Source: an uncultured Bradyrhizobium sp.
GTDB taxonomy: Bacteria; Pseudomonadota; Alphaproteobacteria; Rhizobiales; Xanthobacteraceae
Assembly (NCBI RefSeq): GCF_947648125.1
Contig: NZ_CANSMR010000007.1
Location: 1-64,000, forward strand
DNA: 64,000 nucleotides
Direction of reading: 5' to 3'
Shown here: one piece after another, positions 27,849-51,538 of the stretch
Numbering within the stretch: the first letter of the stretch is position 1
Layout of the letters: each line of letters opens with the position of its first letter
Notes under the pieces: model-generated
Database searches by the model: none
What the model was told of the DNA's origin: nothing
Seen by the model: only the letters and a program-made list of their open reading frames with translations
Program-made: the position numbers and the translations under genes

Positions 27849-27934
27849 CTCGCTCGCAGAACCTGGCCGCCCTGTCCGGCGACAAACACTCTGGAATGAC
27901 GGATGATCGCGTCCAGCGGTTGGGAGATCGAGTG

Positions 27935-28384: not shown

Positions 28385-29877
<1,493 letters not shown>

Positions 29878-29881
<4 letters not shown>

Positions 29882-33095: not shown

Positions 33096-33123
33096 TCCAG
33101 CAAGGCGTTCGATTTCGGGAGAT

Positions 33124-33156
33124 GAACGTCCCGGGCGGGATGCACCCGGGACGTTC
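33124..33156 (-). promoter_or_regulatory. Intra-operon hairpin after the binding-protein gene
   Basis: GAACGTCCCGGG (33124-33135) pairs perfectly with CCCGGGACGTTC (33145-33156), with a 9-base loop and no T-run. It sits 17 bases past the stop of the binding-protein gene and before the permease fusion. Such hairpins often protect the binding-protein message and lower expression of downstream membrane genes. Confidence 0.65.
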
Positions 33157-33173
33157 AGCGGGAAATGGCCGGG

Positions 33174-34190: not shown

Positions 34191-34231
34191 TGCTTCCTCC
34201 TTGGTCGTGATTGATCGTTCTTCGATTTGGT

Positions 34232-36355: not shown

Positions 36356-37126
36356 ATGACGGCAGTTGGATCACATGGTGCACGCGCGGGCGCTGCGATC
36401 GGCGCTGACGCTCCGGGAGCCTCCGCAACGTTGCGGTATCTGTTCGGGATTTGTGCTGCGCTCCTGATCGGCAGCATCTGCGCGGTTGCCGCGCAGCAGC
36501 GCGACACCGTCGCGGCATCCGCAGCGATCGAATTCAACATCCCGGCCCAGCAGCTTGCGAGCGCACTGCAGGCTTATGGCGAACGAACCGGCGTTCAGGT
36601 GCTCTATGAGAGCAATTCTGCGACGGGACGGAAGTCGACGTCGGTCGAAGGCAGCCTCACGCCCGAGGATGCATTGAATCTGCTGCTGACGGGAACCGAC
36701 CTGAAGGTCCAGTACATTCGTCCGGATGCCATCACGCTTGCTTCGCGCGCCGTGCGCGCCGACCATCCGCCGGCGAGCCCGCTTGCGACCGCGGATCTGT
36801 CGCTCGGCACGTTGCAGGTGCGGGCGAGCAGTGACGGCAACGACACCGGCGCGCTGCGCGACTACAGCGAAAGCCTGCAACTCGACCTTCAAAAGGCGCT
36901 GCAGAAGAATATCGGGTCTCGCGGCGGCAGCTATCAGCTCATTGTCGATCTGTGGATCGACCCCTCGCGCACGATCCAGCGAACCCAGCTGTTGCGCTCG
37001 ACCGGCGATCAGAAGCGCGATGCCGCCGTCACCGCGGCGCTGCAAGGATTGACCGTCAGCCGAACGACGCCCGCGAATGCGTCGCAGCCGGTGCGGATCG
37101 CGATCCGGGTGAAGTCGTTCCAATGA
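36356..37126 (+). CDS. Periplasmic STN-domain protein with TonB-C-like C-terminus
   Basis: 256 residues from the ATG at 36356. An N-terminal hydrophobic anchor or signal is at about 26-46. Residues about 58-129 are a secretin/TonB short N-terminal domain (FNIPAQQLASALQAYGERTG, SVEGSLTPEDALNLLL), normally the signalling part of FecA-type receptors. Residues about 172-254 resemble a TonB C-terminal domain (YQLIVDLWIDPSRTIQRTQL; GDQKRDAAVTAALQGL; QPVRIAIRV). No barrel is attached. Its stop overlaps the next tonB gene as ATGA. It probably feeds FecR or the barrel; this is inference. Confidence 0.85.
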   Translation: MTAVGSHGARAGAAIGADAPGASATLRYLFGICAALLIGSICAVAAQQRDTVAASAAIEFNIPAQQLASALQAYGERTGVQVLYESNSATGRKSTSVEGSLTPEDALNLLLTGTDLKVQYIRPDAITLASRAVRADHPPASPLATADLSLGTLQVRASSDGNDTGALRDYSESLQLDLQKALQKNIGSRGGSYQLIVDLWIDPSRTIQRTQLLRSTGDQKRDAAVTAALQGLTVSRTTPANASQPVRIAIRVKSFQ

Positions 37127-37851
37127 GTGCCAACGACACCAGCGGAGCGGATGGGGTGCGCGACGCAAGTCCGATGACGCTGCTGTTTCATCCCGAGGAT
37201 CCGGGCGCGTGGACCTCGGGCGAGGTGCTGCGTCTGCTCCTGGTGCCGGCGATCGCAGCCCTGTTGTTCGTCGGGGGAATCTACTGGATCCGGCTGCAGC
37301 CGCCGGCTGGACCGGCAAGCCGGGAGCAGAGCTCGATCGTCCAGGTTCGGTTGCTGCCGAGCCCGTCGCCTGCGCCGATTCCGGTTGCGCCGGTGTCGCA
37401 GCCGCAAACCGCGACCGTCGCCAGCCGGACCGACGTGTCACCGGAGAACTCCGAACCGCCGCTCGACAATCTGACCGCGGCCGCGGCGCGGGAGCCGATG
37501 CCGGCGGAGCCGGCCGTGCCGAGCTTGCGTCCGACGCCGTCGCCCGCCGATGCGCCGCCCAACAGTGCCGCCGTGAAATTTCAGCAGGCGCTGCTTCGTC
37601 ATGTGGCACGCTACCAGCGCTATCCGAACGCGGCGCGGCTCGGTCGGCTGCACGGGGCGGTCGAGACGCTGTTCTCCATGCAGCGGGACGGCACCCTGCT
37701 CGAGGTCTGGGTCAAGACCAGCTCCGGGCAGGCCGTGCTCGACAAGGCTGCGGTGGACGCGATCCGGCGGGCGCAGCCGCTGCCGTCGATCCCGTCGGCG
37801 CTGCCCGACCGGCTCAATATTCAGATCACCCTGGTCTTCGACCCAGCCTGA
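37123..37851 (+). CDS. TonB family energy transducer
   Basis: 242 residues. One inner-membrane helix at about 35-55 (LRLLLVPAIAALLFVGGIYW) is followed by a Pro/Ala/Ser-rich periplasmic spacer and a TonB C-terminal domain (YQRYPNAARLGRLHGAVETL; VKTSSGQAVLDKAAVDAIRR). It is translationally coupled to the STN protein gene. It would transmit proton-motive-force energy from ExbB/ExbD, encoded 5 kb further on. Confidence 0.93.
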   Translation: MSANDTSGADGVRDASPMTLLFHPEDPGAWTSGEVLRLLLVPAIAALLFVGGIYWIRLQPPAGPASREQSSIVQVRLLPSPSPAPIPVAPVSQPQTATVASRTDVSPENSEPPLDNLTAAAAREPMPAEPAVPSLRPTPSPADAPPNSAAVKFQQALLRHVARYQRYPNAARLGRLHGAVETLFSMQRDGTLLEVWVKTSSGQAVLDKAAVDAIRRAQPLPSIPSALPDRLNIQITLVFDPA

Positions 37852-38052
37852 TTCCGATGCGTGGTCCCGTTCGGCTTCGCAGGCGCGAGCGGCAGTTCAT
37901 TGCTTGGATGTGACCGCGATGCACCAGCTTCCGTGTCGTTCGGTGTCGACTTGTTGCCGTCATAAATGTGTTGTGCGTGGCCGTTACGAGATGGGCAGCT
38001 TCAAGAACAATTCAATCTGGATATCGGGCTGGTGTCTGGGAGGCCGCGGAAC

Positions 38053-38595
38053 GTGGCTGAAATCAATCGAGTGCGGCTGCGGGGCCAGCTTGCAGATAAT
38101 TACGACGGCCTCGTCAAGAAATTGACCCGCCGTCTGGGATCGTCGGACTTCGCCTACGAAGCCCTGCACGAGACGTTCCTGCGGCTGGAGCGGGTCACTG
38201 ACGCGGTGCCGATCCGCAGCCCCGCCGACTATATCTTTCGTATCGCGATCAACATCGCCAGGGATCGCCAGAAGGCGCAGAATCTCCGCGTCAGCGCGGC
38301 CGAAATCGATTCATTGCTCGACGTCAGCGACGACGGACCGAGCCCGGCGCGAATCGTCGAGGCGCGCTCCGATATCGATGCTTTCAAGCGTGCCTTGGCC
38401 GAATTGCCGCAGCGGCCGCGCGATGTTCTTTATAGCATTACGATCGAGGGACGGACGCCGAGCGATGTGGCGACCCGCCTCGGTGTCAGCGTGCGAACGG
38501 TGGAAAGCGATTTGAAGTTGGCTCTGAGCCATTGTGCCGATTGCCTCGATTATACTCTGATCCGTCGTCTCGGCGGTCCTCGTCCCCGTTCGTGA
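38053..38595 (+). CDS. ECF RNA polymerase sigma factor (FecI-like)
   Basis: 180 residues from a GTG at 38053 with a GGGAGG site at about 38038. Region 2 (DNYDGLVKKLTRRLGSSDFA; IRSPADYIFRIAINIARDR) and region 4 (LAELPQRPRDVLYSITIEGR then TPSDVATRLGVSVRTVESDL) are both clear. A FecR gene follows, so it is probably an iron-starvation-type (FecI) sigma factor controlled by membrane signalling. Its regulon is presumably the cluster itself. Confidence 0.9.
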   Translation: MAEINRVRLRGQLADNYDGLVKKLTRRLGSSDFAYEALHETFLRLERVTDAVPIRSPADYIFRIAINIARDRQKAQNLRVSAAEIDSLLDVSDDGPSPARIVEARSDIDAFKRALAELPQRPRDVLYSITIEGRTPSDVATRLGVSVRTVESDLKLALSHCADCLDYTLIRRLGGPRPRS

Positions 38596-39058
38596 TCGAA
38601 TTCGCCGTGGCCGCGACGCGCGCCGTCACGCGCAGCGGGCCGTCGAAATTTGTTGCAGGAATTATTTCCAACAACTGCAGGCGCTTGACCTGAAATAAGG
38701 GGGCACAAGCTGCAGGATTTTCAACCTCTGTTCTGCGGGATAGCGGGCTTTCCGTCGTCTATAGGGTAGAGAGCGATCTCATAAGGACCGTTTGGGTGCC
38801 TGGGAAAGGTTCGCTGGAAGTGTTGAGCAGCTTGAAAACACGTTCAGACCTGATCGGCCCGGCATGCGATCATCGCGCCGCCTTCCGGCGTGCGATGCGG
38901 CGCAAGCTGCGGTTGCCGGATGTTTCTGCTTGCGTTGTGCGCAACGGCCGATTGCGGTGCCCTGCTGCCGTCGGAATCGTCTATATAGCGACCTTCGCTA
39001 TGTGCTCGACGCGATCGGGAGGTTGAGGTTTGGCGAGCAGGGTGATGAGCAATCTGTC
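38596..39058. other. Intergenic region between sigma factor and FecR genes
   Basis: 463 bases with no supported gene. GTTGCAGGAATTATTTCC followed by AACAAC (38652-38675) can fold as an imperfect hairpin and may end the sigma-factor transcript. A promoter for the fecR-downstream genes is likely here but I cannot point to one. Confidence 0.4.
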
Positions 39059-40042
39059 GTGACCGAGCCGACCCGCACTTCCGGGCCCGATCCGTTGCTG
39101 GATGAGGCGCTTGACTGGGTTGTTCGGCTGAAAGCCGGCGCGCCGACGCGCGCCGACGTCGACGCATTGCAACGCTGGCGCGCGCAAAGTCCCGACCACG
39201 AGGATGCCTTCAGGGCGGCTGCCCGGCTGCTCCGCAGCGCCAGCGCTGCGGCAAAGGAACTCGCCGATGAGCAGGCGGCAACGGCCTCCGTGGTGGTGTT
39301 GCCGCCCCGGCCATCACGCCTCTTGACGCGTCGCATCGTGCTCGGCGGTGCGATCGCAGCCGCGGCCGGCTACGTGATGATCCGCCCGCCACTCGACATG
39401 TGGCCGTCGATCGAAGAGCTCTCGGCCGACTACCGAACCGGAAAGGGCGAGCAGCGCAAGGTGATGCTGGCGCCCGACATCTCGGTTGAATTGAACACCC
39501 AGACCAGCCTGGCGCTGCGGCCCACCCCGAACGAAACTCGGGTCGAGTTGATTTCGGGCGAGGCCTCGGTGATCGCCCGCAGGTCGTCGTCGACGCCGCT
39601 GGTGATGCTGGCGCGCGATGGGCGCATCAGCGCGCTGCAGGCCGATTTCAACGCGCGCTGCCTCGATGGCGTCGTCTCGGTGACATGCCTCGACGGCATC
39701 GTCACCGTCGAGCAGGACGGCCGTTCCGTGCAGCTTCGCAAGGCGGAGCAGGTCACCTACTCGCCCGCGGGCCTGCAGGCATCGCTTCCGGTCGACGCCA
39801 GGCAGGTTGCGGCGTGGCAGACCGGATTGTTGATCTTCCGCGACCGGCCGCTGGCGAGCGTCGTCGACGAAGTGAACCGGTATCGCGCCGGAAAGATCAT
39901 CATTACCAACGCGGAACTGAAACGCCGGCTCGTCAACGGCACATTCCAGGTCGACAAGCTCGACAATTTCGTCGCCCAGGTCGAGCAACTGTTCGGCGCG
40001 CGGATCACGTCGTTGCCTGGCGGCGTGGTGCTGATGAGCTGA
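39059..40042 (+). CDS. FecR family sigma-regulator protein
   Basis: About 327 residues if the GTG at 39059 is used (AGGGTGA lies 13 bases upstream); the true start is uncertain. The N-terminal cytoplasmic DUF4880 block is DEALDWVVRLKAG then RWRAQSPDHEDAF. One helix at about 90-107 (RRIVLGGAIAAAAGYVMI) is followed by a periplasmic FecR domain (DYRTGKGEQRKVMLAPDISV; RVELISGEASVIA) and a STN-like C-terminus (NRYRAGKIIITNAELK). It should hold or activate the neighbouring sigma factor. Confidence 0.9.
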   Translation: MTEPTRTSGPDPLLDEALDWVVRLKAGAPTRADVDALQRWRAQSPDHEDAFRAAARLLRSASAAAKELADEQAATASVVVLPPRPSRLLTRRIVLGGAIAAAAGYVMIRPPLDMWPSIEELSADYRTGKGEQRKVMLAPDISVELNTQTSLALRPTPNETRVELISGEASVIARRSSSTPLVMLARDGRISALQADFNARCLDGVVSVTCLDGIVTVEQDGRSVQLRKAEQVTYSPAGLQASLPVDARQVAAWQTGLLIFRDRPLASVVDEVNRYRAGKIIITNAELKRRLVNGTFQVDKLDNFVAQVEQLFGARITSLPGGVVLMS

Positions 40043-40044
40043 CC

Positions 40045-40165
40045 TGGAGCGTTTTCGCGCGAAGCCTGTCCCGCACTTGATGCGGGATGGATACCGGTTC
40101 GCGTGAAGGAAACGCGTCAAAAAGATCTGGAGCCCCGTTCCGCTTCGATCGTAGCGGGGGCTCTC
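40045..40165. repeat. Composite palindromic repeat (GAGCGTTTTCG family)
   Basis: GAGCGTTTTCGCGCGAAG, then CCCGCACTTGATGCGGG, GGTTCGCGTGAAGGAAACGC and a hairpin AGCCCC/GGGGCT at 40131-40162. It is related to the unit at 27749-27848. It begins three bases after the fecR stop and fills most of the gap before the barrel gene. Confidence 0.75.
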
Positions 40166-40339
40166 ATCGAACGAATCGACGCCGCGCGCTCGATTTCCTA
40201 ACAAACCAAAAATTTCTTTTGCGCTGCCGCAGATTCTTTTGCGGGTTTGCATCCGCCCAGACGTCTTCTGAGTAAGGCGTCGTCATCGCGGGCTTCCTGT
40301 CGCGATGGCGCGCGTCTGCGCGAAGTAAGTGGGACGTCT

Positions 40340-42088
40340 GTGCGTAGTCGAAGAGATCATTGGGCTATTGGGCATCGTCAGCGATGCCGGATCGGGTTGC
40401 GCGTGTCAGCTGCGGCACTCACCGTGGTTGGCTCCGTAGCAGCCATCGTTCCGGCGCGCGCGGCGAAGGAAGCAGCGAAAGATGCGGCTGCGGCCGCAGC
40501 GCCGGCGGCGGACAAGCAGCAGGCGAATGCGCCGGCGCAAAAGCCGTCGGCGCCGCTGCAGCGCTTCGACATCGACGACTTTGCCGTGCAGGGTGCCGAC
40601 AGGCTGCCTCAGGTCGAGATCGAGGAGGCGATCTATCCCTTCCTTGGTCCGAACAAGACCTCGGAGGATGTCGAGAAGGCGCGCGCCGCGCTGGAGAAGA
40701 CGTATCACGACAAGGGCTTCCAGACCGTCAGCGTCGCGGTCCCGCAGCAGAACGTGACGGGCGGCGTGGTCACCCTCAAGGTGACCGAGCTGAAGGTCGG
40801 GCGGCTGCGGGTGAAGAACTCGCGTTATTTCGATCTCGACCGGATCAAGGACAGCGCGCCTTCGCTGAAGGAAGGCACCGTTCCCAATTTCGGTGACGTC
40901 ACCAAGGACATCGTGTCGCTCAATCAGTGGCCGGATCGCCGTGTGACTCCGGCGCTGCGCGCCGGCGTGGCGCCGGGCACCGTCGACGTCGATCTCAATG
41001 TCGAGGACAAGGCGCCGTTCCACGCCAGCCTCGAAGCCAACAACCGGCAGTCGCCGTCCACCACGGCGAGCCGCGTCTCCGCCACCGTGCATTACGACAA
41101 TCTGTGGCAGCTCGGCCATTCCCTGAGCTTCACCTATCAGGTCGCGCCGGAGCGCCCGAGCGATGCCGAGGTGTTCTCCGGCTCGTATATGGCGCGGATA
41201 CCGAACGCCGATTGGCTCAATTTGCTGTTCTACAGCGTCAAGTCGAACAGCAATGTCGCGACGATCGGCGGCACCAACGTGGTCGGTCCCGGCACGATCA
41301 TCGGCGAGCGCGCCGTGATCACGCTGCCGACGCGCGAGGGCCTGTTCCACACGCTGTCGGTCGGCATGGACTACAAGCATTTCGACCAGACCGTGAAGCT
41401 CGGCACCGACGGGTTCTCGTCGCCTGTCACTTATTATCCCGTTGTCGCGACCTATGGGGCGACGTTCCAGGAAGAGAAGTTCACGACGCAGTTCAATGCC
41501 GGCGTCACCTACAACATCCGGACGCTGAGCAGCCCGTGGGACGAGTTCGACGCGAAGCGCTTCAAGGCTTCGCCGAGCTTCACCCACCTCAACCTCGACG
41601 TCTCGCATACCCAGGAGCTGCCGGAAGGCTTCCAGCTCTACGGCAAGGTGCAGGGGCAGATTGCCGACGGCCCGCTGGTCTCGAGCGAGCAGTTCAGCCT
41701 CGGCGGTCTCGATACCGTTCGCGGCTACCTCGAGTCCGAGGTGCTCGGCGACAACGGCGCGGTCGCCAATCTCGAGCTGCGCACGCCCAATGTCGGCGGC
41801 ATGCTGCAAGGCGAGCTCAAGAGCGAAACCGGCGACGGCAAGCCGCGCTTCGTCACTTTCAACGATTGGCGCTTCTTCACGTTCTTCGATGGCGGATACA
41901 CGGCCATTCAGCAGCCGCTGCCCGGCCAGGAGTCGTCATTCGTCGCATGGAGCTACGGCGTCGGCACGCGATTCAAAACCTTCGATTACTTCAACGGCAT
42001 GGTCGCGTTCTCCGTGCCGGGGGTTACTCAAGCATACACGCACGCAAACAGTCCGCGCGTGAACTTCCGAATCTGGGGTGAATTCTGA
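40340..42088 (+). CDS. TpsB/FhaC-type outer-membrane transporter (ShlB family)
   Basis: About 582 residues from the GTG at 40340 (upstream alternatives exist). The signal peptide ends near AIVPARA. An Ala-rich segment is followed by a POTRA domain (FDIDDFAVQGADRLPQVEIE; EKTYHDKGFQTVSVAVPQQN) and a second POTRA-like part, then the 16-strand barrel. The barrel has motifs SLGGLDTVRGYLESE (the VRGY lid motif) and FFDGG, and it ends in Phe. Partner exoproteins (TpsA) are absent. The stop overlaps the ExbB-fusion start as TGATG. Confidence 0.9.
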   Translation: MRSRRDHWAIGHRQRCRIGLRVSAAALTVVGSVAAIVPARAAKEAAKDAAAAAAPAADKQQANAPAQKPSAPLQRFDIDDFAVQGADRLPQVEIEEAIYPFLGPNKTSEDVEKARAALEKTYHDKGFQTVSVAVPQQNVTGGVVTLKVTELKVGRLRVKNSRYFDLDRIKDSAPSLKEGTVPNFGDVTKDIVSLNQWPDRRVTPALRAGVAPGTVDVDLNVEDKAPFHASLEANNRQSPSTTASRVSATVHYDNLWQLGHSLSFTYQVAPERPSDAEVFSGSYMARIPNADWLNLLFYSVKSNSNVATIGGTNVVGPGTIIGERAVITLPTREGLFHTLSVGMDYKHFDQTVKLGTDGFSSPVTYYPVVATYGATFQEEKFTTQFNAGVTYNIRTLSSPWDEFDAKRFKASPSFTHLNLDVSHTQELPEGFQLYGKVQGQIADGPLVSSEQFSLGGLDTVRGYLESEVLGDNGAVANLELRTPNVGGMLQGELKSETGDGKPRFVTFNDWRFFTFFDGGYTAIQQPLPGQESSFVAWSYGVGTRFKTFDYFNGMVAFSVPGVTQAYTHANSPRVNFRIWGEF

Positions 42089-44133
42089 TGGGGATGGGTC
42101 TTACTCTCGAGCGTCGCACGCGCCGGCCGGCGCTGCGCCGAGGCGTTGCGAACATCGCGACGGCATTGTTGTTCGGGCTCGTCGCCCTGCTGACGACGCT
42201 CGCGCCGGCCAATGCGTGGTGGAACGACGAATGGTCGCTGCGCAAGAAGATCACGGTCGACGTCAGCGCGTCGGGTGCCAACGTCACCGATCCGATCGGT
42301 GCAACGGCGGTGCTGGTGCGGCTGCATGTCGGCAACTTCCGCTTCAGCGCGGCGAAGGACGACGGCAGCGATCTGCGGTTCGTCGCCGGTGACGACAAGA
42401 CGCCGCTGAAGCATCACATCGAGAAGTTCGATTCGCTGCTCGGCGAAGGCCTGGTCTGGGTCGCAGTGCCGAATATCGCACCGGGCGCGCGGACCGATAT
42501 CTGGCTCTATTACGGCAACAAGAAAGCGCTCGCGACCAACGATCCCAAGGGCACCTACGATCCGGATACGTTGACGGTCTATCACTTCAACGAGCGCGGC
42601 ACGCCGGCGATCGATTCCTCGGTGTGGGCCAACAACGCCCAAAGCGTCGGCCAGCCGGCGGACGGTTCGCTGATCGGGACCGGCTTGCGGCTCGACGGCC
42701 GCACGCCGGTAACCGTGCCGGCCTCGCCGTCGCTGGCATCGCCGGATGGTGCCGCGCTGACGTGGTCGGCCTGGATCAAACCGGCCGCCTTGCAGCCCAA
42801 CGCTGCGCTGTTCAGCCGGCGTGACGGCGCCAACGCACTGGTGGTCGGTGTCGACAATGGCAGCCCGTTCGTCGAAGTCACCAATGCGGGCTCCGTGCAG
42901 CGCTCGAGTGCCGGAGCACCGGTGGCGGCCGGCAGCTGGCATCATGTCGCCGTCGTTGCCGGAAACGGACAGGTCACGCTCTATCTCGACGGCGTATCCT
43001 ACGCCGCGCTCAGCGCGAGCCTGCCGGCCCTCAACACCGTTGGCCTGATCGGAGGAGACTCGTCGACCTCCAGTGCGTCTCCGATCGCGCCTGCGACGGC
43101 CCCGTCCGCAGCAACACCATCAGTGCCCCCTGATGCGTCGGCTGCGGACGGTGGCGCCGCGCCCGCGGCGACGCCGGATGCGGCGGCAACGCCGGCACCC
43201 GCGCCTGCGCCTGTAGCCGCCGCGATGGCCGGCTTCGTCGGCGACATTGACGAGCTGCAGATCAGCAAGGTCGCGCGCCCCGCCGGACTCATCAAGGTGA
43301 TGGCGATCGGGCAGGGTCCCGACCAGGCCAAGTTGATGGCATTCAGCGTTGATGAGGAGACCGCAAGCTGGCTGTCCGGCTACTTCGCGGTGATCCTGAA
43401 GTCGGTGACGCTCGACGGCTGGGTGGTGATCGGCATTCTGCTGATCATGGCCGCGATCAGCTGGGTGGTGATGTTCGACAGAGCCTCGTATCTCAGCAAG
43501 CAGGCCAAGGCGAATGCCCAGTTCATGAAGGGGTTCCGCGAGATCGCGGCCGATCTCACCATGCTGGATCGCGGCGATGCGGACGATATCTCGACGCTGG
43601 GCGGACGCCTCACCGAAGCCGACGCCAAGATGATGCGCTCGTCCTCGCTCTACCGCATCTACCACATCGGCGCTGCGGAAATCCGCCACCGCTTCAACAA
43701 CTCGCAGCGCGCTCCGGTGCTGTCGGCGGTCTCGATCGCGGCGATCCGCGCCGCGCTCGATAGCGGCGTCGTCAAGGAGATGCAGCGCCTCAACCGCCTG
43801 ATGGTGGTGCTGACCATCGCGATCTCCGGCGGACCGTTCCTCGGCCTGCTCGGCACCGTGGTCGGCGTCATGATCACCTTTGCGGCGATCGCGGCGAGCG
43901 GTGACGTCAACGTCAACGCGATCGCGCCCGGCATCGCTGCGGCGCTGGTCGCAACCGTCGCCGGTCTCGGCGTCGCGATCCCGGCGTTGTTCGGCTACAA
44001 CTACCTGATCTCCCGGATCAAGGACCTGACCAACGACATTCAGGTCTTCGTCGACGAGTTCGTGACCAAGATGGCGGAATTCTATTCCGCCGACCGGCCG
44101 GACCCGATCGAACGCCGCATCGCCGCGGAGTAA
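42088..44133 (+). CDS. DUF2341-LamG-ExbB fusion (proton channel with periplasmic lectin-like head)
   Basis: 681 residues. A signal/anchor segment is at about 22-43, then DUF2341 at about 44-145 (WWNDEWSLRKKITVDVS; DIWLYYGNKKA). A LamG/concanavalin-like domain spans about 160-400 (TLTVYHFNER; AWIKPAALQP; SWHHVAVVAGNGQVTLYLDG; GFVGDIDELQISKV), with a Pro/Ala-rich loop inside. The C-terminal MotA/TolQ/ExbB domain has helices at about 444-462, 571-600 and 612-638 (GPFLGLLGTVVGVM). ExbD follows 5 bases after the stop. Standard ExbB lacks such a head; it may bind glycan or protein. Confidence 0.93.
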   Translation: MGMGLTLERRTRRPALRRGVANIATALLFGLVALLTTLAPANAWWNDEWSLRKKITVDVSASGANVTDPIGATAVLVRLHVGNFRFSAAKDDGSDLRFVAGDDKTPLKHHIEKFDSLLGEGLVWVAVPNIAPGARTDIWLYYGNKKALATNDPKGTYDPDTLTVYHFNERGTPAIDSSVWANNAQSVGQPADGSLIGTGLRLDGRTPVTVPASPSLASPDGAALTWSAWIKPAALQPNAALFSRRDGANALVVGVDNGSPFVEVTNAGSVQRSSAGAPVAAGSWHHVAVVAGNGQVTLYLDGVSYAALSASLPALNTVGLIGGDSSTSSASPIAPATAPSAATPSVPPDASAADGGAAPAATPDAAATPAPAPAPVAAAMAGFVGDIDELQISKVARPAGLIKVMAIGQGPDQAKLMAFSVDEETASWLSGYFAVILKSVTLDGWVVIGILLIMAAISWVVMFDRASYLSKQAKANAQFMKGFREIAADLTMLDRGDADDISTLGGRLTEADAKMMRSSSLYRIYHIGAAEIRHRFNNSQRAPVLSAVSIAAIRAALDSGVVKEMQRLNRLMVVLTIAISGGPFLGLLGTVVGVMITFAAIAASGDVNVNAIAPGIAAALVATVAGLGVAIPALFGYNYLISRIKDLTNDIQVFVDEFVTKMAEFYSADRPDPIERRIAAE

Positions 44134-44138
44134 TTGCG

Positions 44139-44543
44139 ATGCAGATCCAGGCCGACTCCAAGCCCTATGACGACATCAACATCACGCCGATGTTGGACCT
44201 CGCCTACGTGCTGCTGGTGATCTTCATCATCATGACGACGGCGACCGTGCAGGGTCAGAAGGTCAATCTGCCGAAGGCCTCGGCGGCGCCGAGCCTTGCG
44301 ACCCAGACCACCAAAGCGATCACTGTCGCCAATGACGGCAAGATCTTCCTCGACACGATTCCGGTGACCCTGGCCGAGCTCGAGCAGCGGTTGATCCAGC
44401 AGAAGGCGCTGACGCCGGAATTTCCCGTGGTGCTGCGCGGCGATGCGCAGGCGCAGTACCAGAGCGTGATGGACGTGTTCGATCTGCTCAGCCGTATCGG
44501 CCTGAGCCAGGTCGGGCTCGCCACCAAGCCGCTCGTGAAGTGA
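44139..44543 (+). CDS. exbD: Biopolymer transport protein ExbD/TolR
   Basis: 134 residues with the one-helix layout: DINITPMLDLAYVLLVIFIIM, including the protonatable Asp of the motor, followed by a periplasmic domain (VTLAELEQRLIQQKA; VVLRGDAQAQYQSVMDVFDL). It pairs with the preceding ExbB fusion as the proton-driven stator. The next start overlaps its stop as GTGA. Confidence 0.94.
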   Translation: MQIQADSKPYDDINITPMLDLAYVLLVIFIIMTTATVQGQKVNLPKASAAPSLATQTTKAITVANDGKIFLDTIPVTLAELEQRLIQQKALTPEFPVVLRGDAQAQYQSVMDVFDLLSRIGLSQVGLATKPLVK

Positions 44544-45097
44544 GCCAGCCGGGAAGCGACGCCATGATCACGCAGCCAGCACCTTTCCCACATACCGAGC
44601 GCAGGACGCTGCGGTCATGGCTGAGCGGCATGATGCGATCATTCGATCACGGCTGCGGTGCCGCGGACGTCACGCGCGCCGACACCCTGTCGCAGGTGTC
44701 GATCCGCGCCGGTATTGGCGCGGAGCTCCCCGCGTTGCCGGTCGCCCCGGTGGGGCGCGAAGAGCCGCGCGGCGAGGTGGTGGCATTTCCCGTTCATGGC
44801 GAGGCCCTGCTGGTCAAGCTCGCGGATGTGCTGCGCCGGCACGTCGCAGGCCGCGAGCCCGCTGACAACCCGCTGCGGCTGACGATCTCGCGATGTCCGT
44901 GGGCCCGCCTGTCGATCGACGCGATGGCCTATGTCGACTTTTTGAGCGAGGTTGAGACCTTTCACGCAGCGATCGAAGCAGGCCCCGACACCAAGGTCAT
45001 CCTGAAGACCACGGACTTCGACGCGCTCGCCAGCTTCGTCATGCAATATGTCAATGACAGGCTGCTCGATCGCGCCTCGGTGGAGGCCGCGCCATGA
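44540..45097 (+). CDS. Conserved-position protein of unknown function
   Basis: 185 residues from a GTG at 44540 coupled to exbD; an ATG at 44564 is possible. No signal peptide or transmembrane helix is evident, so it is probably cytoplasmic. I recognise no domain. The C-terminal half has a plausible alpha/beta pattern (LRLTISRCPWARLSIDAMAY; KVILKTTDFDALASFVMQYV). Overlaps on both sides with exbD and tonB suggest it is needed in step with the motor, perhaps as a regulatory subunit. Confidence 0.75.
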   Translation: MSQPGSDAMITQPAPFPHTERRTLRSWLSGMMRSFDHGCGAADVTRADTLSQVSIRAGIGAELPALPVAPVGREEPRGEVVAFPVHGEALLVKLADVLRRHVAGREPADNPLRLTISRCPWARLSIDAMAYVDFLSEVETFHAAIEAGPDTKVILKTTDFDALASFVMQYVNDRLLDRASVEAAP

Positions 45098-45903
45098 ACG
45101 CGCCGATGCGAGACCAGAACGCGCGTGCCGCGCCGTCAGCCGACGATCACGATGTTGCCGTCGCGCCCGCAACGGCCGCGGCGCCGCCGACGGCCGCCCG
45201 CAACACGGCCGCTCGGAAGGCCGAGCGCAGTGCAGTGCTGCGTTACGGTGCTGTGGTGGCGGTGGTCGCGCTGTTCCTTGGCGGGATCGTCTACTTCTTT
45301 CTCGGTCACGACGATCTGCCGCCGCCGCGTCAGGTGCGCGATCTCACCATTGTCAATGTGACGCTGCCGCCGCCACCTCCGCCTCCGCCGCCACAGCCGC
45401 AGCCCGAACAGAAGATGATCGAGCAGCCCAAGATGGCGGAGCCCGAGTTCAAGGAAGAGAAGCCGGTCGACAAGCCGAAGGACGAGCCGGCCAAGGACGC
45501 CAAGAACGACGAGCCGCCCGGTCCGCTGTCGCTCGATGCCAAGCCGACCGGACCCGGTGATCTGTTCAATCTCGGCGGCAAGCCCGGCGGCAACCCGTAT
45601 GGCGGAGGCGGCGGCGGTGGCAGCCGCTGGGGTTGGTACACCACGATCATCACCTCGCAGGTCGAGGCGGCAATCCGCGCCAATCCGAAGACCCGCAACA
45701 TGGCGACGCAGATCCAGGTGCGGCTGTGGGTGGATGGCTCCGGCCACGTCACCCGCGTCGTCCTGACGCCGTCCTCCGGCAATCCGGAGATCGATGCGGC
45801 GCTTCGCAACGAGGTGATCGGCAGCCTGACGCTGCGCGAGCCACCGCCCAAGGACATGCCGATGCCTGTGGTCACGCGCGTCACCGCGCGACGGCCGAGC
45901 TGA
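45094..45903 (+). CDS. TonB family energy transducer
   Basis: 269 residues. A cytoplasmic N-terminal part of about 48 residues is followed by one helix (YGAVVAVVALFLGGIVYFFL), a Pro-rich stretch with (P)9, Lys/Glu/Pro repeats that form the periplasmic span, a Gly-rich hinge, and a C-terminal TonB/TolA-like domain (IQVRLWVDGSGHVTRVVL; NPEIDAALRNEVIGSL). It overlaps the preceding gene as ATGA. It is the second complete TonB of this cluster, after the protein at 37123. Confidence 0.92.
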   Translation: MNAPMRDQNARAAPSADDHDVAVAPATAAAPPTAARNTAARKAERSAVLRYGAVVAVVALFLGGIVYFFLGHDDLPPPRQVRDLTIVNVTLPPPPPPPPPQPQPEQKMIEQPKMAEPEFKEEKPVDKPKDEPAKDAKNDEPPGPLSLDAKPTGPGDLFNLGGKPGGNPYGGGGGGGSRWGWYTTIITSQVEAAIRANPKTRNMATQIQVRLWVDGSGHVTRVVLTPSSGNPEIDAALRNEVIGSLTLREPPPKDMPMPVVTRVTARRPS

Positions 45904-45964
45904 CGAGACGACTGACGAACGACCAACCTTCGAATTCAATGTGCGAGTGAGAACTGGGGGACTG

Positions 45965-47860
45965 ATGTTTAAGAAACGAGCTCACGCAGAATGGCGCGCG
46001 TTGCCGCTTGCGGTGTCGCTGAGCGCGCTCGCCTGCGCAACGCCGGCCGTGGGCCAGACCGCGGACCAGGCTGCCGAGCAGGGTCCCGCCGCCGCGGCGA
46101 AGCGGACCGATGCCAAGAAGCCGAAGGTGTCGAGCACCAAGCCGACATCGTCCAACGCCACCGTCAACCTCGTCAATCTGCTGGTGCAGCAGGGCGTTCT
46201 CAAGGAAGAGCAGGCCCAGGCGCTGATCAAGCAGGCCGAGGACGAGGCCTATGTCTCCCGGCAGGCCGCCAAGGACGCCACGACCAAGGCCGACGACGCC
46301 ACCAAGGCGGCAACGGCTGCCGCCGCGGCGGCACAGCCGCCCGGCACGCGGCACGTCACCTACGTTCCCGAAGTCGTCAAGAGACAGTTACGGGAAGAGA
46401 TTAAGCAGGAGGTGATGGCCAAGGCGCAGAAAGAAAACTGGGCGTCGCCCGGAACCTACCCGGAATGGGCGCAACGCATCCGTTTCTACGGCGATGCGCG
46501 CGTGCGCTATCAGGGCAATTACTTCCCGGCCGGCAACGACCAGGCCGGCGCCGCCAACTTTAATGCGATCAATACCGGATCGCCGTTCGACGTATCGAAC
46601 TCGAACCCGTACTTTGGGCCAACCTATAACGCCACACAGGACCGCAACCAGTTCCGGCTTCGCGGCCGGCTCGGGATGGAAGCGGACCTGCTCTACGGGT
46701 TCACGGCCGGTCTGCGCATCGCGACCGGCGAAAATAACTCGCCGGTGTCGACCAACCAGACGTTTGGTGCGAGCGGAGGCAACTTCTCTAAATATTCGCT
46801 CTGGCTGGATCGCGGTTACATCAACTGGCAGGGTTGGAACGGCGATTTGAGCCTGTCTGCGGGCCGTTTCGACAACCCGTTCTGGTCGCCGACCGATCTC
46901 GTCTGGTACAAGGAACTCGGCTTCGACGGCTTCGCCGTTCAGGCCAAGCACGAGGTATGGGAAGGATTCACGCCATTCGCCGTGGCCGGCGCATTCCCGA
47001 TCTACAACACCGACTTCAACGCCGGAATCAATCTGGCGGATCCGGCCACCGGGGCGCCAACCAAGTTCGCCAGCCACGACAAGTGGCTGTTCGGAGGCCA
47101 GGTCGGCTTCAACGCCCGCTTCAGTCCGGAATATGCGTTCCGGTTCGGCGTCGCCTACTACGACTTCGACAATGTGCAGGGCCAGCGCTCCAGCCGATGC
47201 ATCGTCGAGCTGGCGTCCGACGTTTGCAATACCGACATCACCCGGCCGTCCTTTGCGCAGAAAGGAAACACCTACTTCCCGCTGCGCAACATCATTCCCG
47301 ATGCCCCCGGCTTCGGTAACAATAACGGTACAGCCTTTCAGTACCAGTATTTCGGACTGGTCAGCCAGTACCGCCCGGTCGTGGTCAGCGGACAGCTCGA
47401 TCTCGGACATTTCCATCCGACCCACATCGTGCTCGACGGCGAGTACGTCAACAACACCGCCTTCAGCCGCTCCCTCATGAATGCGGCCGCGGCAATCTAC
47501 GGCGTCAACATGAACAATCGCGGGCCGAGCCCGGACGGTGGCAACACGCCCGGCCCGTTCAACGGCGGCAATCAGGGTTGGCTCGGCCGCGTCACTGTCG
47601 GCGACAGGGAGATCAAGCATCTCTGGGATTGGAACGTCCACGCCGGCTACAAGTACCTGGAATCCGACGCCACCATCGATGCCTTCGCAGATTCCGACTT
47701 CGGTCTCGGCGGCACCAACCTCAAGGGCTATTTCGTCGGCGGCAATATCGGTCTCGGCGAGAATGTCTGGGCGACCTTGCGCTGGATGAGCGCCAACAGC
47801 ATCGCCGGCAATCCCTATGCCGTCGACGTGCTGCAAGTCGACCTCAACGCGAAGTTCTGA
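45965..47860 (+). CDS. Putative outer-membrane porin (Porin_5-like)
   Basis: 631 residues from the ATG at 45965 with a GGGGGAC site upstream. The signal peptide ends TPAVGQ. An N-terminal coiled-coil-like, Ala/Lys-rich part (about 40-145) contains VNLLVQQGVLKEEQAQALIKQ, typical of the putative porin family. A large beta-barrel region follows (IRFYGDARVRYQGN; WLDRGYINWQG; SLSAGRFDNPFW) and ends in a terminal Phe. It may be the outer-membrane target or partner of the TonB system. Confidence 0.88.
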   Translation: MFKKRAHAEWRALPLAVSLSALACATPAVGQTADQAAEQGPAAAAKRTDAKKPKVSSTKPTSSNATVNLVNLLVQQGVLKEEQAQALIKQAEDEAYVSRQAAKDATTKADDATKAATAAAAAAQPPGTRHVTYVPEVVKRQLREEIKQEVMAKAQKENWASPGTYPEWAQRIRFYGDARVRYQGNYFPAGNDQAGAANFNAINTGSPFDVSNSNPYFGPTYNATQDRNQFRLRGRLGMEADLLYGFTAGLRIATGENNSPVSTNQTFGASGGNFSKYSLWLDRGYINWQGWNGDLSLSAGRFDNPFWSPTDLVWYKELGFDGFAVQAKHEVWEGFTPFAVAGAFPIYNTDFNAGINLADPATGAPTKFASHDKWLFGGQVGFNARFSPEYAFRFGVAYYDFDNVQGQRSSRCIVELASDVCNTDITRPSFAQKGNTYFPLRNIIPDAPGFGNNNGTAFQYQYFGLVSQYRPVVVSGQLDLGHFHPTHIVLDGEYVNNTAFSRSLMNAAAAIYGVNMNNRGPSPDGGNTPGPFNGGNQGWLGRVTVGDREIKHLWDWNVHAGYKYLESDATIDAFADSDFGLGGTNLKGYFVGGNIGLGENVWATLRWMSANSIAGNPYAVDVLQVDLNAKF

Positions 47861-47862
47861 CC

Positions 47863-48456
47863 ATGCGCATCGCACTCTTTGTCCTGATGATGGTGGTCGG
47901 AGCGTTGAGCTCCGGCACCGCATTCGCCCAGTCCGAGACCGACCGCCTGCGCGACGCCTTGCGTAGCGCGACGGCACAGACCCGTGCGCTGGAAGACCAG
48001 CGCACGGCGTTGCAGGCCAAAGTCGCCGACGCCGATCGCGAAAAGGCGGCGGCCAAGAAGGAGGTCGACGACCTCAAGGCACAGCTGAAGAAGGCCGACA
48101 AGGAACATCGCGACGCTGTCGACGAGTTCAATCAACGGCTCGCCGAACGTGACGAGACGCTGGAGAAGTGGAAGTCGGCCTATGAGGAGGCGGCCACCGT
48201 TGCCCGCACAAAGGACGCCGAGCGCGCCAAGTTCGAAGGTGAGGCCACCGCCTACAAGGCCAGCACCAAGAGCTGCGTCGCCAAGAACACCCAGCTGATC
48301 AAGGCCGGCAAGGAGATGGTGCAGCGCTACAAGGACCTGACCATCGGCGAGATCGTGGTCTCGCGAGAGCCGATGATTCAGCAGCGCCGCGTCGAAATCC
48401 AGAATCAGCTGCAGGAAAGCCAGGACAAGTTCCTCGATCAGAAGGTGAATCCATGA
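47863..48456 (+). CDS. Periplasmic coiled-coil protein
   Basis: 197 residues beginning two bases after the porin stop. The signal peptide ends GTAFAQ. The mature protein is a long alpha-helical coiled coil (about 25-130) rich in Ala/Lys/Glu/Asp, with a single Cys near SCVAKNTQ and a conserved-looking C-terminal helix. There is no enzyme domain. It could act as a periplasmic spacer or chaperone for the machine. The stop overlaps the next start as ATGA. Confidence 0.8.
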   Translation: MRIALFVLMMVVGALSSGTAFAQSETDRLRDALRSATAQTRALEDQRTALQAKVADADREKAAAKKEVDDLKAQLKKADKEHRDAVDEFNQRLAERDETLEKWKSAYEEAATVARTKDAERAKFEGEATAYKASTKSCVAKNTQLIKAGKEMVQRYKDLTIGEIVVSREPMIQQRRVEIQNQLQESQDKFLDQKVNP

Positions 48457-49505
48457 CGACCGCCACTATCGTGAAGCCGCTCCGGTCGATCGGTCTCGCC
48501 GCCGCCGTCGCGGCTTTCGTTGCGCCGCTCGATGCCTCGGCGCAGGCTCAGACACAGGCTCCCGCGCCACGGACGGTGCAGGCCCCGGTCAGGAAGCCGC
48601 AGCCACAGCCCGCGGCGCAGGCGCAAGCCGCCGCCACGCCGGCGCCGGCCCCGGTCGCGGCGGCGCCGAAGCCCGTCACCGCGCCCGAGAACGTCATCGC
48701 GCGGGTCGGCGACACCAACATCTCCGCCGATGATCTTCGCAGCTATGTCGCAGCCCTTGCCCCGCGCGAACAGGCTGCGCTGGCCAAGGATCCGGCCATG
48801 CTGAGCCAGGCGGTCCGGCTGCTGCTCGCCAACCGCCTCGTGCTGCAGGAAGCGGTGGCGAAGAAGTGGGATCAGCAACCCAGCGTCGCCGCGCAGCTCG
48901 ACCGGGCGCGCGAGGGCGCGGTGGTCGAGCTCTACCTGCAATCGGTGTCGACGCCGCCGGCGAACTTTCCGAGCGAAGACGATTTGCAGAAGGTCTATGA
49001 GGCCAATCGCGCCGCATTCCTGATGCCGCGGCAATTCCAGCTCTCGCAGATCTTCGTCGCCGCTCCGAAGGAAGGCGACAAGGCCGCCGAGGACAAGGCG
49101 AAGCAGGAGCTCGACGACGTGCAGCGCAAGCTGAAGGCGCCGGGAGCCGACTTCGCGGCGATCGCGCGCGGCGACAACAACGCCGCCAAGGATGCCGGCG
49201 ACCTCGGCTGGGTAGCCGAGAACCAGATCCGTCCGGAGATCCGCAACCAGGTGTTGGGGCTCGCCAAGAACAGCGTGTCCGAGCCGATCAAGCTCGACGA
49301 CGGCTGGCACATCATCAAGCTGATCGACACCAAGGCGTCCTATACCCGCACCTTGCCCGAAGTGCGCGACCAGCTGGTGCTGCAGATCCGCTCCGAGCGG
49401 TCGAACATGATGCGGCGGGCGTATCTCGCCGAGCTGCTGAAGCAGCATCCGCCCGTCCTCAATGAGCTTGCACTGTCGAGCCTGCTCGACGCGTCGAAGA
49501 AGTAA
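48453..49505 (+). CDS. Periplasmic PpiC/SurA-type peptidyl-prolyl isomerase
   Basis: 350 residues with a signal peptide (cleavage near LDASAQ), a Pro/Ala/Gln-rich linker, an N-terminal chaperone-like helical part (NVIARVGDTNISADDLRSYV) and a parvulin rotamase domain (MPRQFQLSQIFVAAP; GDLGWVAENQIRPEI; LDDGWHIIKLIDTK). SurA-like proteins escort outer-membrane proteins, so this one probably serves the porin and barrel of the cluster. Coupled to the coiled-coil gene. Confidence 0.92.
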   Translation: MTTATIVKPLRSIGLAAAVAAFVAPLDASAQAQTQAPAPRTVQAPVRKPQPQPAAQAQAAATPAPAPVAAAPKPVTAPENVIARVGDTNISADDLRSYVAALAPREQAALAKDPAMLSQAVRLLLANRLVLQEAVAKKWDQQPSVAAQLDRAREGAVVELYLQSVSTPPANFPSEDDLQKVYEANRAAFLMPRQFQLSQIFVAAPKEGDKAAEDKAKQELDDVQRKLKAPGADFAAIARGDNNAAKDAGDLGWVAENQIRPEIRNQVLGLAKNSVSEPIKLDDGWHIIKLIDTKASYTRTLPEVRDQLVLQIRSERSNMMRRAYLAELLKQHPPVLNELALSSLLDASKK

Positions 49506-49518
49506 TACGGAGATAAAG

Positions 49519-50049
49519 ATGCCCGAGATCATCACCAAGCTCACCATCGAAGGATTGCGCGACAGCTTCCAGAATGTCGGCTATCGCGTCGAAACGCTGA
49601 CCGATCCGGTCGCCAATACGACCTATCTGCGCTCGGCGACGGCGGGGCTCGGGTTCGAGATCCGGCCGGGAAACCAGCTCGTCGGCGAGGAGCAGAGTTT
49701 TGTCGACGCCACGCTGGTCACCACGCTCCAGGTGCAGGGCGAGCTGCCGCTCGACCTCGTCAATCGCTGGAATACGACGCGGCGGTTCGGGCGGCTGCAG
49801 TTCAGCCAACCGTTCCTGCTGTTCTGCCTCGATGTCTCCGTGGCCGGCGGCGTGGCGCCGAACTTCGTGCGGGCGCAGATCGAGGTCTGGGACCGCCTGG
49901 TTCAGGAGCTGATCGCCTATCTGCGCGAGGAGCTGCCGAAGATCGTGGCCCGGAATGGCGCGGCGGCTGCCCCGCAGCCGAGTGCGCCGGCCCAGCAGCC
50001 GGCGCATGAGCACGCCGCGGAAGCGGGATCGGTTCCCACCATCCAGTAG
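49519..50049 (+). CDS. YbjN domain-containing protein
   Basis: 176 residues from the ATG at 49519; the open frame extends back into the foldase gene but a CGGAGA site precedes this ATG. The YbjN fold is recognisable from LTIEGLRDSFQNVGYRVETL, LVNRWNTTRRFGRLQFS and FLLFCLDVSVAGGV. The fold resembles type III secretion chaperones. No signal peptide, so it is cytoplasmic. The C-terminal tail is Pro/Ala/His-rich. Confidence 0.87.
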   Translation: MPEIITKLTIEGLRDSFQNVGYRVETLTDPVANTTYLRSATAGLGFEIRPGNQLVGEEQSFVDATLVTTLQVQGELPLDLVNRWNTTRRFGRLQFSQPFLLFCLDVSVAGGVAPNFVRAQIEVWDRLVQELIAYLREELPKIVARNGAAAAPQPSAPAQQPAHEHAAEAGSVPTIQ

Positions 50050-50088
50050 CCCGCGCGCACGGGCGAACATCAGGACCGCAACCGATCC

Positions 50089-50994
50089 ATGAATGACGGT
50101 GCCTCAACGACGAAGGCGGGCAGCTTCAGCCGATGGCGGAAGCTGCTTGATCCTGCTCGTCGCCGGGGCAGCCGCATCGCAGCCGGCGGTCTTGTGCTCG
50201 CGTTTTGTCTTGCGCAGCCCGCTCACGCGGAGCAGGCGACGCCGGCATCGTCATTCAGCACGCGCTTTGCCGCCGTCGAGTCGGCAGACCCTTCAGCCGA
50301 CGCCACGGCAAAGCCGCCGGCCGAGGCGACGACGAAGCCGGCCGCGCCGGCCAAAGATGCGGTGAAGGATGCGCCGAAGGACGGTGGCGGGAAAACGCTC
50401 CCGCTTCCGCCCGCAAGCCAGCCCGCGGTGTCGGACGCGCGCATGCGCTATCGCGCGCTGATCGAGAAGGAGGCGGCGGGAAGCGGGCTCGCGCCCGAGA
50501 TCGCCGAGGCGGTGATGGGCGTGGAGAGCGGCTACAATCCCGACGTGATCGGCGGCGTCGGCGAAATCGGGCTGATGCAGCTGCTGCCGTCGACCGCACG
50601 CATGCTCGGCTTCTCCGGCTCGCTTGCCGAGCTCGCGATTCCCGAAAACAACATTCACTTCGGCGTCATGTATCTTGCGCAGGCGTGGCGCCTTGCCGGT
50701 GGCGACCTGTGCACCGCAGTCATGAAGTACCGCGCAGGCCACGGCGAGACCCGTTTCTCCTATCTGTCGGTGAATTATTGCGTGGCGGTGCGCAGCCGGC
50801 TGTTTGCCCGCGGCTTTCGGGTGACGGGAACCGTGCCGGTCGCGACCTTCGGCGAACCGGGCCGTGCCGGCGGTGGCGGCGGTGGATGCGGCCGCAAATG
50901 CCTCGGCGGCGGCGGACGCATCGGTCGCGTCGATCTCGTCGCACTCAACACGCGGCTCAATGCGCTTGTGATCCAGGCCCGGGGAGGGAAATAG
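50089..50994 (+). CDS. Lytic transglycosylase (SLT domain)
   Basis: 301 residues with a signal peptide ending AQPAHAE, a low-complexity Ala/Pro/Lys segment, and a SLT goose-lysozyme-like domain from about 115. The catalytic Glu is in AVMGVESGYNP (about residue 146), followed by GEIGLMQLLPSTARMLGF and the AVMKYRAGHGE block. The tail is Gly-rich with two Cys (GGCGRKCLGGG). It probably opens peptidoglycan locally so the envelope machine can assemble. Last large gene of the cluster. Confidence 0.93.
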   Translation: MNDGASTTKAGSFSRWRKLLDPARRRGSRIAAGGLVLAFCLAQPAHAEQATPASSFSTRFAAVESADPSADATAKPPAEATTKPAAPAKDAVKDAPKDGGGKTLPLPPASQPAVSDARMRYRALIEKEAAGSGLAPEIAEAVMGVESGYNPDVIGGVGEIGLMQLLPSTARMLGFSGSLAELAIPENNIHFGVMYLAQAWRLAGGDLCTAVMKYRAGHGETRFSYLSVNYCVAVRSRLFARGFRVTGTVPVATFGEPGRAGGGGGGCGRKCLGGGGRIGRVDLVALNTRLNALVIQARGGK

Positions 50995-51091
50995 TAAGAG
51001 CCGCGCCGCCCTAATTCATATCGTTGCCTTGATATCCTCCTCTGGCTTCCTATCGTTTGAAACAATTCTGGTTCTGCAAGGAGCAGTGCCG

Positions 51092-51538
51092 ATGAAAGTG
51101 ATCATGTTGGCGGTCGCCGTTGCCGGATTGTCGGCGATGCAGGCGGAGGCGCAGACGCAGCAGCGCACGCCGCTGCCGGAAATTGTCGTCGGCACACCGC
51201 CGCCGGCGCTCAACCTCAACCGCGACACCAGTGGCGGCACACCGCCGCCGACGCTCAACCTCAACCGCGATACCGGTGGCGGCACCGGCCGGGCTGCGGC
51301 AAGAGGCAGCGGCGGCTGCGGCGATGCGGCCTCGCTTGGCTGTATCAATGAGCGGTTGAAAAAGCAGGTCGATCAGGTCAATCCGCCCGTAACCAACACG
51401 CCGCCGATCGATGCGAAATCGCAGGATCTCAAGGTGGGCGTGGTCAACGTCCCGGCGGTGCAGCAGCAATATGGCCGCAACTTCGGGGTCTCGGCGTTTC
51501 CCTATCGCCCACCAGCGCCCGTTTACAGTCATCGATAA
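51092..51538 (+). CDS. Short secreted protein with tandem repeat
   Basis: 148 residues from the ATG at 51092 with an AAGGAG site. The signal peptide ends AMQAEAQ. Two tandem copies of a 15-16 residue unit, GTPPPALNLNRDTSG and GTPPPTLNLNRDTGG, lie at about 34-65; the DNA repeat is about 48 bases per unit (51189-51284). Two Cys follow (GGCGDAASLGCIN). No known domain. It could belong to the upstream cluster or be separate; the 97-base gap contains possible promoter space. Confidence 0.72.
   Translation: MKVIMLAVAVAGLSAMQAEAQTQQRTPLPEIVVGTPPPALNLNRDTSGGTPPPTLNLNRDTGGGTGRAAARGSGGCGDAASLGCINERLKKQVDQVNPPVTNTPPIDAKSQDLKVGVVNVPAVQQQYGRNFGVSAFPYRPPAPVYSHR
51189..51284 (+). repeat. Tandem direct repeat inside the secreted-protein gene
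   Basis: GGCACACCGCCGCCGGCGCT then CAACCTCAACCGCGACACC, followed by a near-identical second unit from about 51237. The repeat is in frame and encodes the PPPxLNLNRDT units. Confidence 0.85.

Follow-up and report, generated by a model that had tools for sequence, protein, structure and literature searches.

What does a complete Ton motor do in a gene cluster that encodes the outer-membrane transporter of a two-partner secretion (TPS) system together with a sigma factor circuit, and that holds neither a TonB-dependent receptor nor a protein to be exported? This question is raised by positions 36356..51538 (+ strand) of a 64-kb stretch of DNA, called the window here, from an uncultured Bradyrhizobium sp. 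(NZ_CANSMR010000007.1). An initial annotation of the locus had proposed that the transporter (TpsB) or a neighboring porin replaces the receptor and acts without an exported partner (TpsA). We consider it rather probable instead that the locus is the hub of a two-partner secretion network of the PUMA3/Vre-Pdt type, serving giant TpsAs encoded elsewhere in the genome, whose C-terminal tail would be gripped by the Ton system and read by the signalling protein VreA. The computed results behind this reading are the conservation of the hub, a single TpsB against five TpsA tails in one genome, satellite signalling cassettes, a widespread tail, and a link between one segment of that tail and the cassette.

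Gene content of the hub locus

The proteins encoded at the locus were as follows.

36356..37126, + strand: VreA-like protein with an STN signalling domain and a TonB/TolA-like C-terminal domain, barrel-less (Pfam STN 1.9e-10, TonB_2 9.3e-05)
37123..37851, + strand: TonB1 (TonB_C), its gene overlapping the 3' end of vreA (Pfam TonB_C 1.4e-13)
37966..38595, + strand: VreI/FecI-like extracytoplasmic function (ECF) sigma factor, start uncertain (Sigma70_r4_2 4.9e-11)
39059..40042, + strand: VreR/FecR-like anti-sigma factor, start inferred (FecR 2.2e-13, DUF4880 1.1e-12; VreR-type profile 478 bits)
40247..42088, + strand: TpsB outer-membrane transporter, start uncertain (POTRA_2 and ShlB by Pfam; fold matches CdiB and FhaC)
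42088..44133, + strand: ExbB fused to DUF2341 and LamG (MotA_ExbB 1.2e-27, DUF2341 3.3e-19, Laminin_G_3 1.2e-17)
44139..44543, + strand: ExbD (ExbD 6.6e-29; 80-94% identity in 11 other hub genomes)
44540..45097, + strand: orphan of 185 residues, retained in close relatives (no Pfam family)
45094..45903, + strand: TonB2, the hub TonB (TonB_2 2.3e-05)
45941..47860, + strand: Porin_5 outer-membrane porin in a PA0696-like position (Porin_5 9.9e-216)
47863..48456, + strand: exported coiled-coil protein, the coiled coil read by eye (kept in 11/11 other hubs)
48453..49505, + strand: PpiC-type peptidyl-prolyl isomerase (Rotamase_2 1.2e-19)
49519..50049, + strand: YbjN-like protein (YbjN 3.2e-05)
50089..50994, + strand: lytic transglycosylase (SLT 5.7e-19)
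51029..51538, + strand: small exported protein, retained beside many hubs (no Pfam family)

The open reading frame table, a check of the starts and Pfam confirmed the sigma/FecR pair, the STN protein, the two TonBs, the ExbB fusion, ExbD, TpsB, the porin and the assembly factors that had been named at the outset. The stated lack of a TonB-dependent receptor also held: a Pfam scan of the 15 proteins at 36.3-51.5 kb found neither such a receptor nor a TpsA (0/15 for both). NCBIfam scans returned general family matches only and named nothing further. The predicted structure of the VreA-like protein (mean predicted local distance difference test score 70.5, 23 sequences) matched the signalling domain of FpvA (E 2.7e-7) and, more weakly, domain III of TolA (E 5.9e-3), and the best fold matches of the TpsB model were E. 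coli CdiB and FhaC. In the TpsB model, the part that links the signal peptide to the first POTRA domain contained no confidently predicted helix that could be a plug, the 43 sequences behind the model being too few for a conclusion.

Relationship to known systems

The Bradyrhizobium locus is related to PUMA3/Vre-Pdt of Pseudomonas and is not new in kind, because P. aeruginosa carries the same gene set, described in the accessible text of PMC2729926 and PMC7035377 as vreA-vreI-vreR with pdtB-exbB2-exbD2-tonB4-PA0696 to PA0699 and compared here by that published description, not by sequence. Three features of PUMA3/VreAIR (the vreA-vreI-vreR cassette) were found in the window: a barrel-less STN protein with a TonB/TolA-like end, as the available parts of the same two papers describe for P. 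aeruginosa VreA, an ECF sigma factor with a FecR-type anti-sigma factor, and a tpsB-exbBD group with a PA0696-type porin; TonB, YbjN and PpiC proteins are likewise shared. The receptor-like STN protein of the window is VreA, whose missing barrel was published for Pseudomonas in 2009. The two loci differ in that the window hub has no tpsA beside tpsB, its clients lying elsewhere in the genome, and in that it has an extra tonB1 between vreA and vreI. The hub ExbB is fused to DUF2341-LamG, Pseudomonas ExbB2 being outside the comparison. The hub-and-satellite layout is also in print, since PMC2729926 (2009), as far as its accessible text goes, noted four PUMA3 clusters in Rhodopseudomonas palustris and Janthinobacterium, three with tpsA and one with tpsB-exbBD.

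With other two-partner secretion systems (type Vb: FhaC/FHA, CdiB/CdiA, HMW1, HxuA) the system shares the TpsB fold of POTRA domains and barrel as well as clients with a TPS domain. It differs in having a dedicated Ton motor, with ExbB, ExbD and TonB encoded together in the hub, in a conserved client tail after the DUF3739 domain, and in the single TpsB that would serve several clients. Cognate TpsAs with a TPS domain lie elsewhere in the genome, outside the window, a pairing suggested by the single TpsB. With FecIR-type cell-surface signalling it has in common the ECF sigma factor, FecR and the STN domain, whereas the cluster lacks a TonB-dependent receptor and its STN protein has its own TonB-like domain. 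Oar-dependent secretion of PopC in Myxococcus, as outlined in the accessible part of PMC6434023, likewise ties protein export to a TonB-linked outer-membrane transporter, which there is a TonB-dependent transporter, whereas the hub uses TpsB.

Conservation of the hub

Hub conservation was measured in a family sample of 100 genomes, of which 12 were hub-bearing (hub-type TpsB of at least 55% identity, the window's genome included) and 88 were not. The order TpsB-ExbB-ExbD-TonB2-porin-coiled coil was kept in 11/11 other hub genomes, and the grouping is therefore not due to chance. VreI and VreR lay upstream of the hub in 7/11; the exceptions were G028 (pieces reversed), G004 (VreA and TonB1 located downstream) and the pair G044 and G074 (none).

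A broader search, of genome_contigs, gave at least 595 matching stretches. At least 556 of them carry a gene related to the ExbB fusion, from which the best 80, selected by closeness to the window's ExbB, were kept. These take in Bradyrhizobium, Rhodopseudomonas, Hyphomicrobium, Magnetospirillum, Burkholderia, Dyella, metagenome-assembled genomes (MAGs) of Verrucomicrobia and one Anaeromyxobacter MAG. Among these best 80 loci, TpsB stood directly before and ExbD directly after ExbB(DUF2341) in 80/80, into Verrucomicrobia and Myxococcota, with gaps between the matches of at most 330 and 291 bases. TonB was detected in 74/80 and the porin in 74/80. Where TonB was missed, 1.6 kb of sequence or less remained in five cases out of six, the sixth being L228, in which TonB went undetected despite 10 kb of sequence; where the porin was missed, no more than 1.6 kb remained in any of the six cases. 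Of 398 genomes in a phylum sample, 14 gave a match; 12 of the 14 lie outside the genus, and in 8 of these 12 TpsB lay beside ExbB. In G118, G363 and G454 the stretch fetched had the ExbB fusion and no TpsB, and G379 was cut. The initial proposal of an energised system around TpsB was supported as to a deeply conserved, receptor-less union of TpsB and Ton motor, and was not supported as to its working without a TpsA.

One TpsB and several TpsAs in the window's genome

The genome carrying the window (G000) comprises 8.57 Mb in 71 contigs. Two profiles run genome-wide matched the hub TpsB alone, and the idea of further TpsBs in this genome was rejected on that basis. The absence of TpsA noted earlier was true of the 15 proteins of the locus and not of the genome, where three TPS-domain proteins and, by the tail profile, five TpsA tails were found elsewhere (contigs C4, C3, C21, C41 and C46). 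The genome also encodes five STN proteins and five VreR-type proteins (cut-off 300 bits; other FecR proteins score up to 229), corresponding to the hub and four satellite VreAIR cassettes. In the satellites on C4 and C6 a private vreA-vreI-vreR cassette runs straight into tpsA, while the contigs of the other two end about 270 and 515 bases past vreR, at a shared repeat. C41 most likely continues the tpsA gene of C6, because its first codons repeat the 18 codons at the end of the C6 fragment. The tail frames on C21 and C46 are open at the contig edge, and these tails may well belong to the two cut satellites. The tpsA on C3 has no VreAIR beside it and adjoins a type II GspD-like secretin and PBP-like proteins (L015/L016, about 141.6-167.4 kb), which we take to be of the phosphate-binding type.

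Some details of these contigs were recorded in passing. On C41 (L137) there seems to be a shift of reading frame around base 2,470, reflecting either a real break or an assembly fault. On C21 (L136) the TpsA tail is directly followed, at 9841-10383, by an isolated ECF sigma factor that shares 69% identity with the hub VreI; the stretch fetched showed neither a VreA nor a VreR match next to this sigma factor. One satellite vreA is directly preceded by genes for a TonB-dependent receptor and a PepSY protein (L017, G000:C7:321404-325254). The neighborhood of the C3 tpsA recalls the Hxc system, which the accessible text of PMC7035377 places in the Pseudomonas Vre regulon.

The conserved TpsA tail

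The giant TpsAs of the hub genomes terminate a short distance past the DUF3739 domain, with PSVIIVEVLGYGG or a closely similar sequence. A profile built from the family tails found tailed giant TpsAs in 12/12 hub genomes and no tailed TpsA among the 88 non-hub genomes, 30 of which have TPS-domain proteins; here TpsA turned out to be the regular partner encoded elsewhere, one of the outcomes that the initial annotation had named as refuting its proposal. The only matches among the 88, both weak, were in G071 (E 8.8e-7, 40-aa frame) and G007 (0.003, 265-aa frame). That of G071 (L140) is a relic-looking tail, IIIIVEVLGFGGG, in a genome without hub-type TpsB, which probably lost the system. Among 51 tails, no variation was seen in the S, V and final G columns; these tails were picked with an expression that fixed V and the final G and allowed S or T, the G418 tail being dropped as a misfit, so that only the S column is free evidence.

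Outside the family sample, 9 of 13 further genomes had the tail on giant frames (E 4.5e-26 to 3e-4), and the tail profile found none in G363, G251, G118 and G454. Among 35 genomes reached via 36 named loci, 29 had the tail at the end of frames of 3.5-4.5k residues (E <0.01), including Verrucomicrobia and Myxococcota MAGs; one of the 29, G526, had itself supplied a row to the profile. In the other six (G493, G499, G508, G510, G511 and G523) the tail was not found, and matches of profile A7 at 0.04-0.06 in G508 and G511 were left uncounted.

The tail segment and the VreAIR cassette

In some TpsAs the tail is followed by about 40 further residues (YDPNS...VxGxGxLT...), called the segment here and counted as present when the profile match reached position 55 or beyond of 73. 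Of 40 TpsAs lying directly behind a VreAIR cassette, 39 had a full segment and one a partial segment, and none of the 21 segment-less TpsAs had VreAIR directly upstream. The family TpsAs (26 + 6) are discovery data, the motif having been noticed before counting: the segment was present in 26/26 complete VreAIR-linked TpsAs and 0/6 unlinked ones. The remaining TpsAs are later data, in which nine linked TpsAs had the segment, that of L168 being partial, followed by 5/5 more. The later test set was drawn from giant-frame tails, of which 15/17 extended and 15/22 unextended were fetched. No VreR-type gene was found upstream of the 15 later segment-less TpsAs in the stretches fetched, L294 having a 65-bit fragment about 9 kb off. 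Matches of 40-81 bits to the vreA profile in this set were classed as TonB proteins, because that profile includes a TonB-like domain. By genome, the number of VreRs outside the hub equalled the number of extended tails in 12/13; G053 had 9 against 10, the extra tail lying at a contig edge. The p values computed with this tally ignore kinship.

The tail/cassette count excluded some genes: L012, which a contig end truncates; L085, a 2260-aa frame without the tail; L065, L084 and L096, other TpsAs without the tail (TpsB adjoins L084 and L096, and none was detected beside L065); and those with contig-edge or cut starts (C21, C41 and C46 of G000; L134, L135, L139 and L289). The segment status of L016, missed by the search expression, was judged by eye. 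A common motif in the vreR-tpsA gaps was sought and dropped, the candidate pattern occurring in only 6/39 loci.

In 35 linked units, the distances among segments correlated with those of VreA (r 0.45), VreI (0.42), the TPS domain (0.19) and VreR (0.17), all these distance correlations ignoring kinship.

Proposed mechanism

In the mechanism that we propose, one TpsB with its Ton motor (DUF2341-ExbB, ExbD, TonB2), porin and folding helpers would serve several giant TpsAs, and the five TpsAs of the window's genome would use the hub TpsB. The passenger would be exported through TpsB and the C-terminal tail would stay in the periplasm. TonB-type domains bind partner strands, and the hub encodes three such domains, in TonB1, in TonB2 and at the C-terminus of VreA. 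The IIVEVLGYGG strand of the tail could be a handle resembling a TonB box, which TonB2, the C-terminal domain of VreA or both would grip and through which the proton motive force may drive or reset export. The last tail segment would be read by VreA and the state of the client passed to VreR and VreI, with each TpsA controlling its own sigma factor. A strand acting as motor handle beside a segment acting as message to VreA would explain why an STN domain is joined to a TonB-like domain in VreA, and a signal of this kind would explain why the inducing signal of P. aeruginosa stays unfound. The wider claim, that Ton-energised two-partner secretion occurs across several phyla, with a TonB-box-like TpsA tail kept in the periplasm and, for TpsAs with a private sigma cassette, the segment as the inducing signal that reports export state to its own sigma factor via VreA, is put forward tentatively, as a serious possibility short of an even chance.

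Several observations weigh against this mechanism. We infer, from sequence, the location of the tail, its binding by TonB and the need for energy, and the strand is presumed to resemble a TonB box. Eight TPS-domain proteins of hub genomes lack the tail (cut or broken genes uncounted), most of them adjoining their own TpsB-like match and two (G046) with none detected, and in G251 TpsB lies beside the ExbB fusion and the tail was not found. As to the segment, three examples had no VreR in the stretches fetched (Magnetospirillum fulvum, two TpsAs, and a Rhodospirillales MAG; G506 twice, G507), and in G043 and G095 the hub VreAIR is present and the only tailed TpsA has no segment. Eleven TpsAs had VreAIR or VreR elsewhere in the neighborhood, not directly upstream (G226, G396, G191, G487, G418, G513, G515, G516, G517, G518 and G525), those of G396, G191 and G487 with a short segment only. 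VreA and VreI distances correlated with each other at 0.71 in the linked units, and the partial correlation with the segment was 0.24 for VreA when VreI was controlled for and 0.16 in the reverse case, so that VreA is not separable from VreI as partner of the segment. In P. aeruginosa, according to the accessible text of PMC7035377, deletion of vreA left sigma VreI activity and virulence unchanged under the conditions used; this either counts against the mechanism or reflects an absent signal, as the authors of PMC4971064 suggest, in the part available, for low phosphate. A review of TPS systems (PMC5422565, accessible text) holds that type V export runs without an energy source, a view that the conserved Ton motor would speak against.

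Alternative explanations

The tail might instead be a static anchor or plug docked in the POTRA domains or barrel of TpsB, like the C-termini reported to be retained in HMW1 and HxuA, and in no need of energy, with the motor powering, for example, uptake through the porin. The porin is indeed retained beside the motor in 74 of the best 80 loci, but it is TpsB, not the porin alone, that adjoins ExbB and ExbD in all 80, and we regard this explanation as unlikely. G118, G363 and G454, which have the ExbB fusion and no TpsB in the stretch fetched, are also tail-less, which speaks against it too and indicates that the tail mostly goes with TpsB, G251 excepted; this co-occurrence fits docking on TpsB and docking on TonB alike. 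The receptor-replacement model with which the annotation began, in which TpsB or the porin works without a TpsA, draws on the fact that the proteins of the 15 kb include neither a TpsA nor a receptor. It is made very improbable by the hub-specific tail on giant TpsAs in 12/12 hub genomes and by the single TpsB found in a genome that has TpsAs.

The link between segment and cassette could also be a matter of shared descent, one VreAIR-tpsA unit having been duplicated and the segment having no signalling role. The linked TpsAs may form one lineage, three segments stand without VreR as described above, and TPS-domain distances correlate weakly with those of VreA (r 0.23, p 0.0008), the segment (0.19, p 0.008) and VreI (0.16, p 0.011). 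They hardly track VreR (0.09, p 0.18), which suggests that the units are unlike blocks always duplicated intact, and the link recurs in other families; a purely genealogical origin accordingly appears improbable to us. A segment read by VreA remains the explanation that we favor.

Neighboring features of the window

Upstream of the hub, genes on the - strand at 28385-35203 encode what we take to be a sugar-type ATP-binding cassette transporter and SMP-30-like proteins. Window positions 26001-28000 have its lowest G+C (0.585), and a tRNA-Arg lies nearby at 24773-24849. The small exported protein at 51029-51538 has PLPEIVVGTPPP near its mature start, and its C-terminal half is conserved beside many hubs. 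This PLPEIVVGTPPP presumably resembles a TonB box.

Significance

The hub with its satellites, VreA and the exbBD association were already known. In the open-access literature we found nothing on the TpsA tail, the segment-cassette link or Ton-energised two-partner secretion, and did not find the constant TpsB-ExbB(DUF2341)-ExbD grouping in print. A motor adjoining TpsB in all of the best 80 loci bears on the view of type V export as energy-free, expressed in the accessible text of PMC5422565. A client-tail segment that tracks the sigma cassette bears on the signal for VreI and the role of VreA, both described as unknown in P. aeruginosa in the available parts of PMC7035377 and PMC4971064. The motor beside TpsB and the segment-cassette link make the energy and signal questions directly testable. 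The cluster has the look of an export station that several giant surface proteins share, unusual in carrying its own motor, and the tail may tell the cell whether such a protein has been exported.

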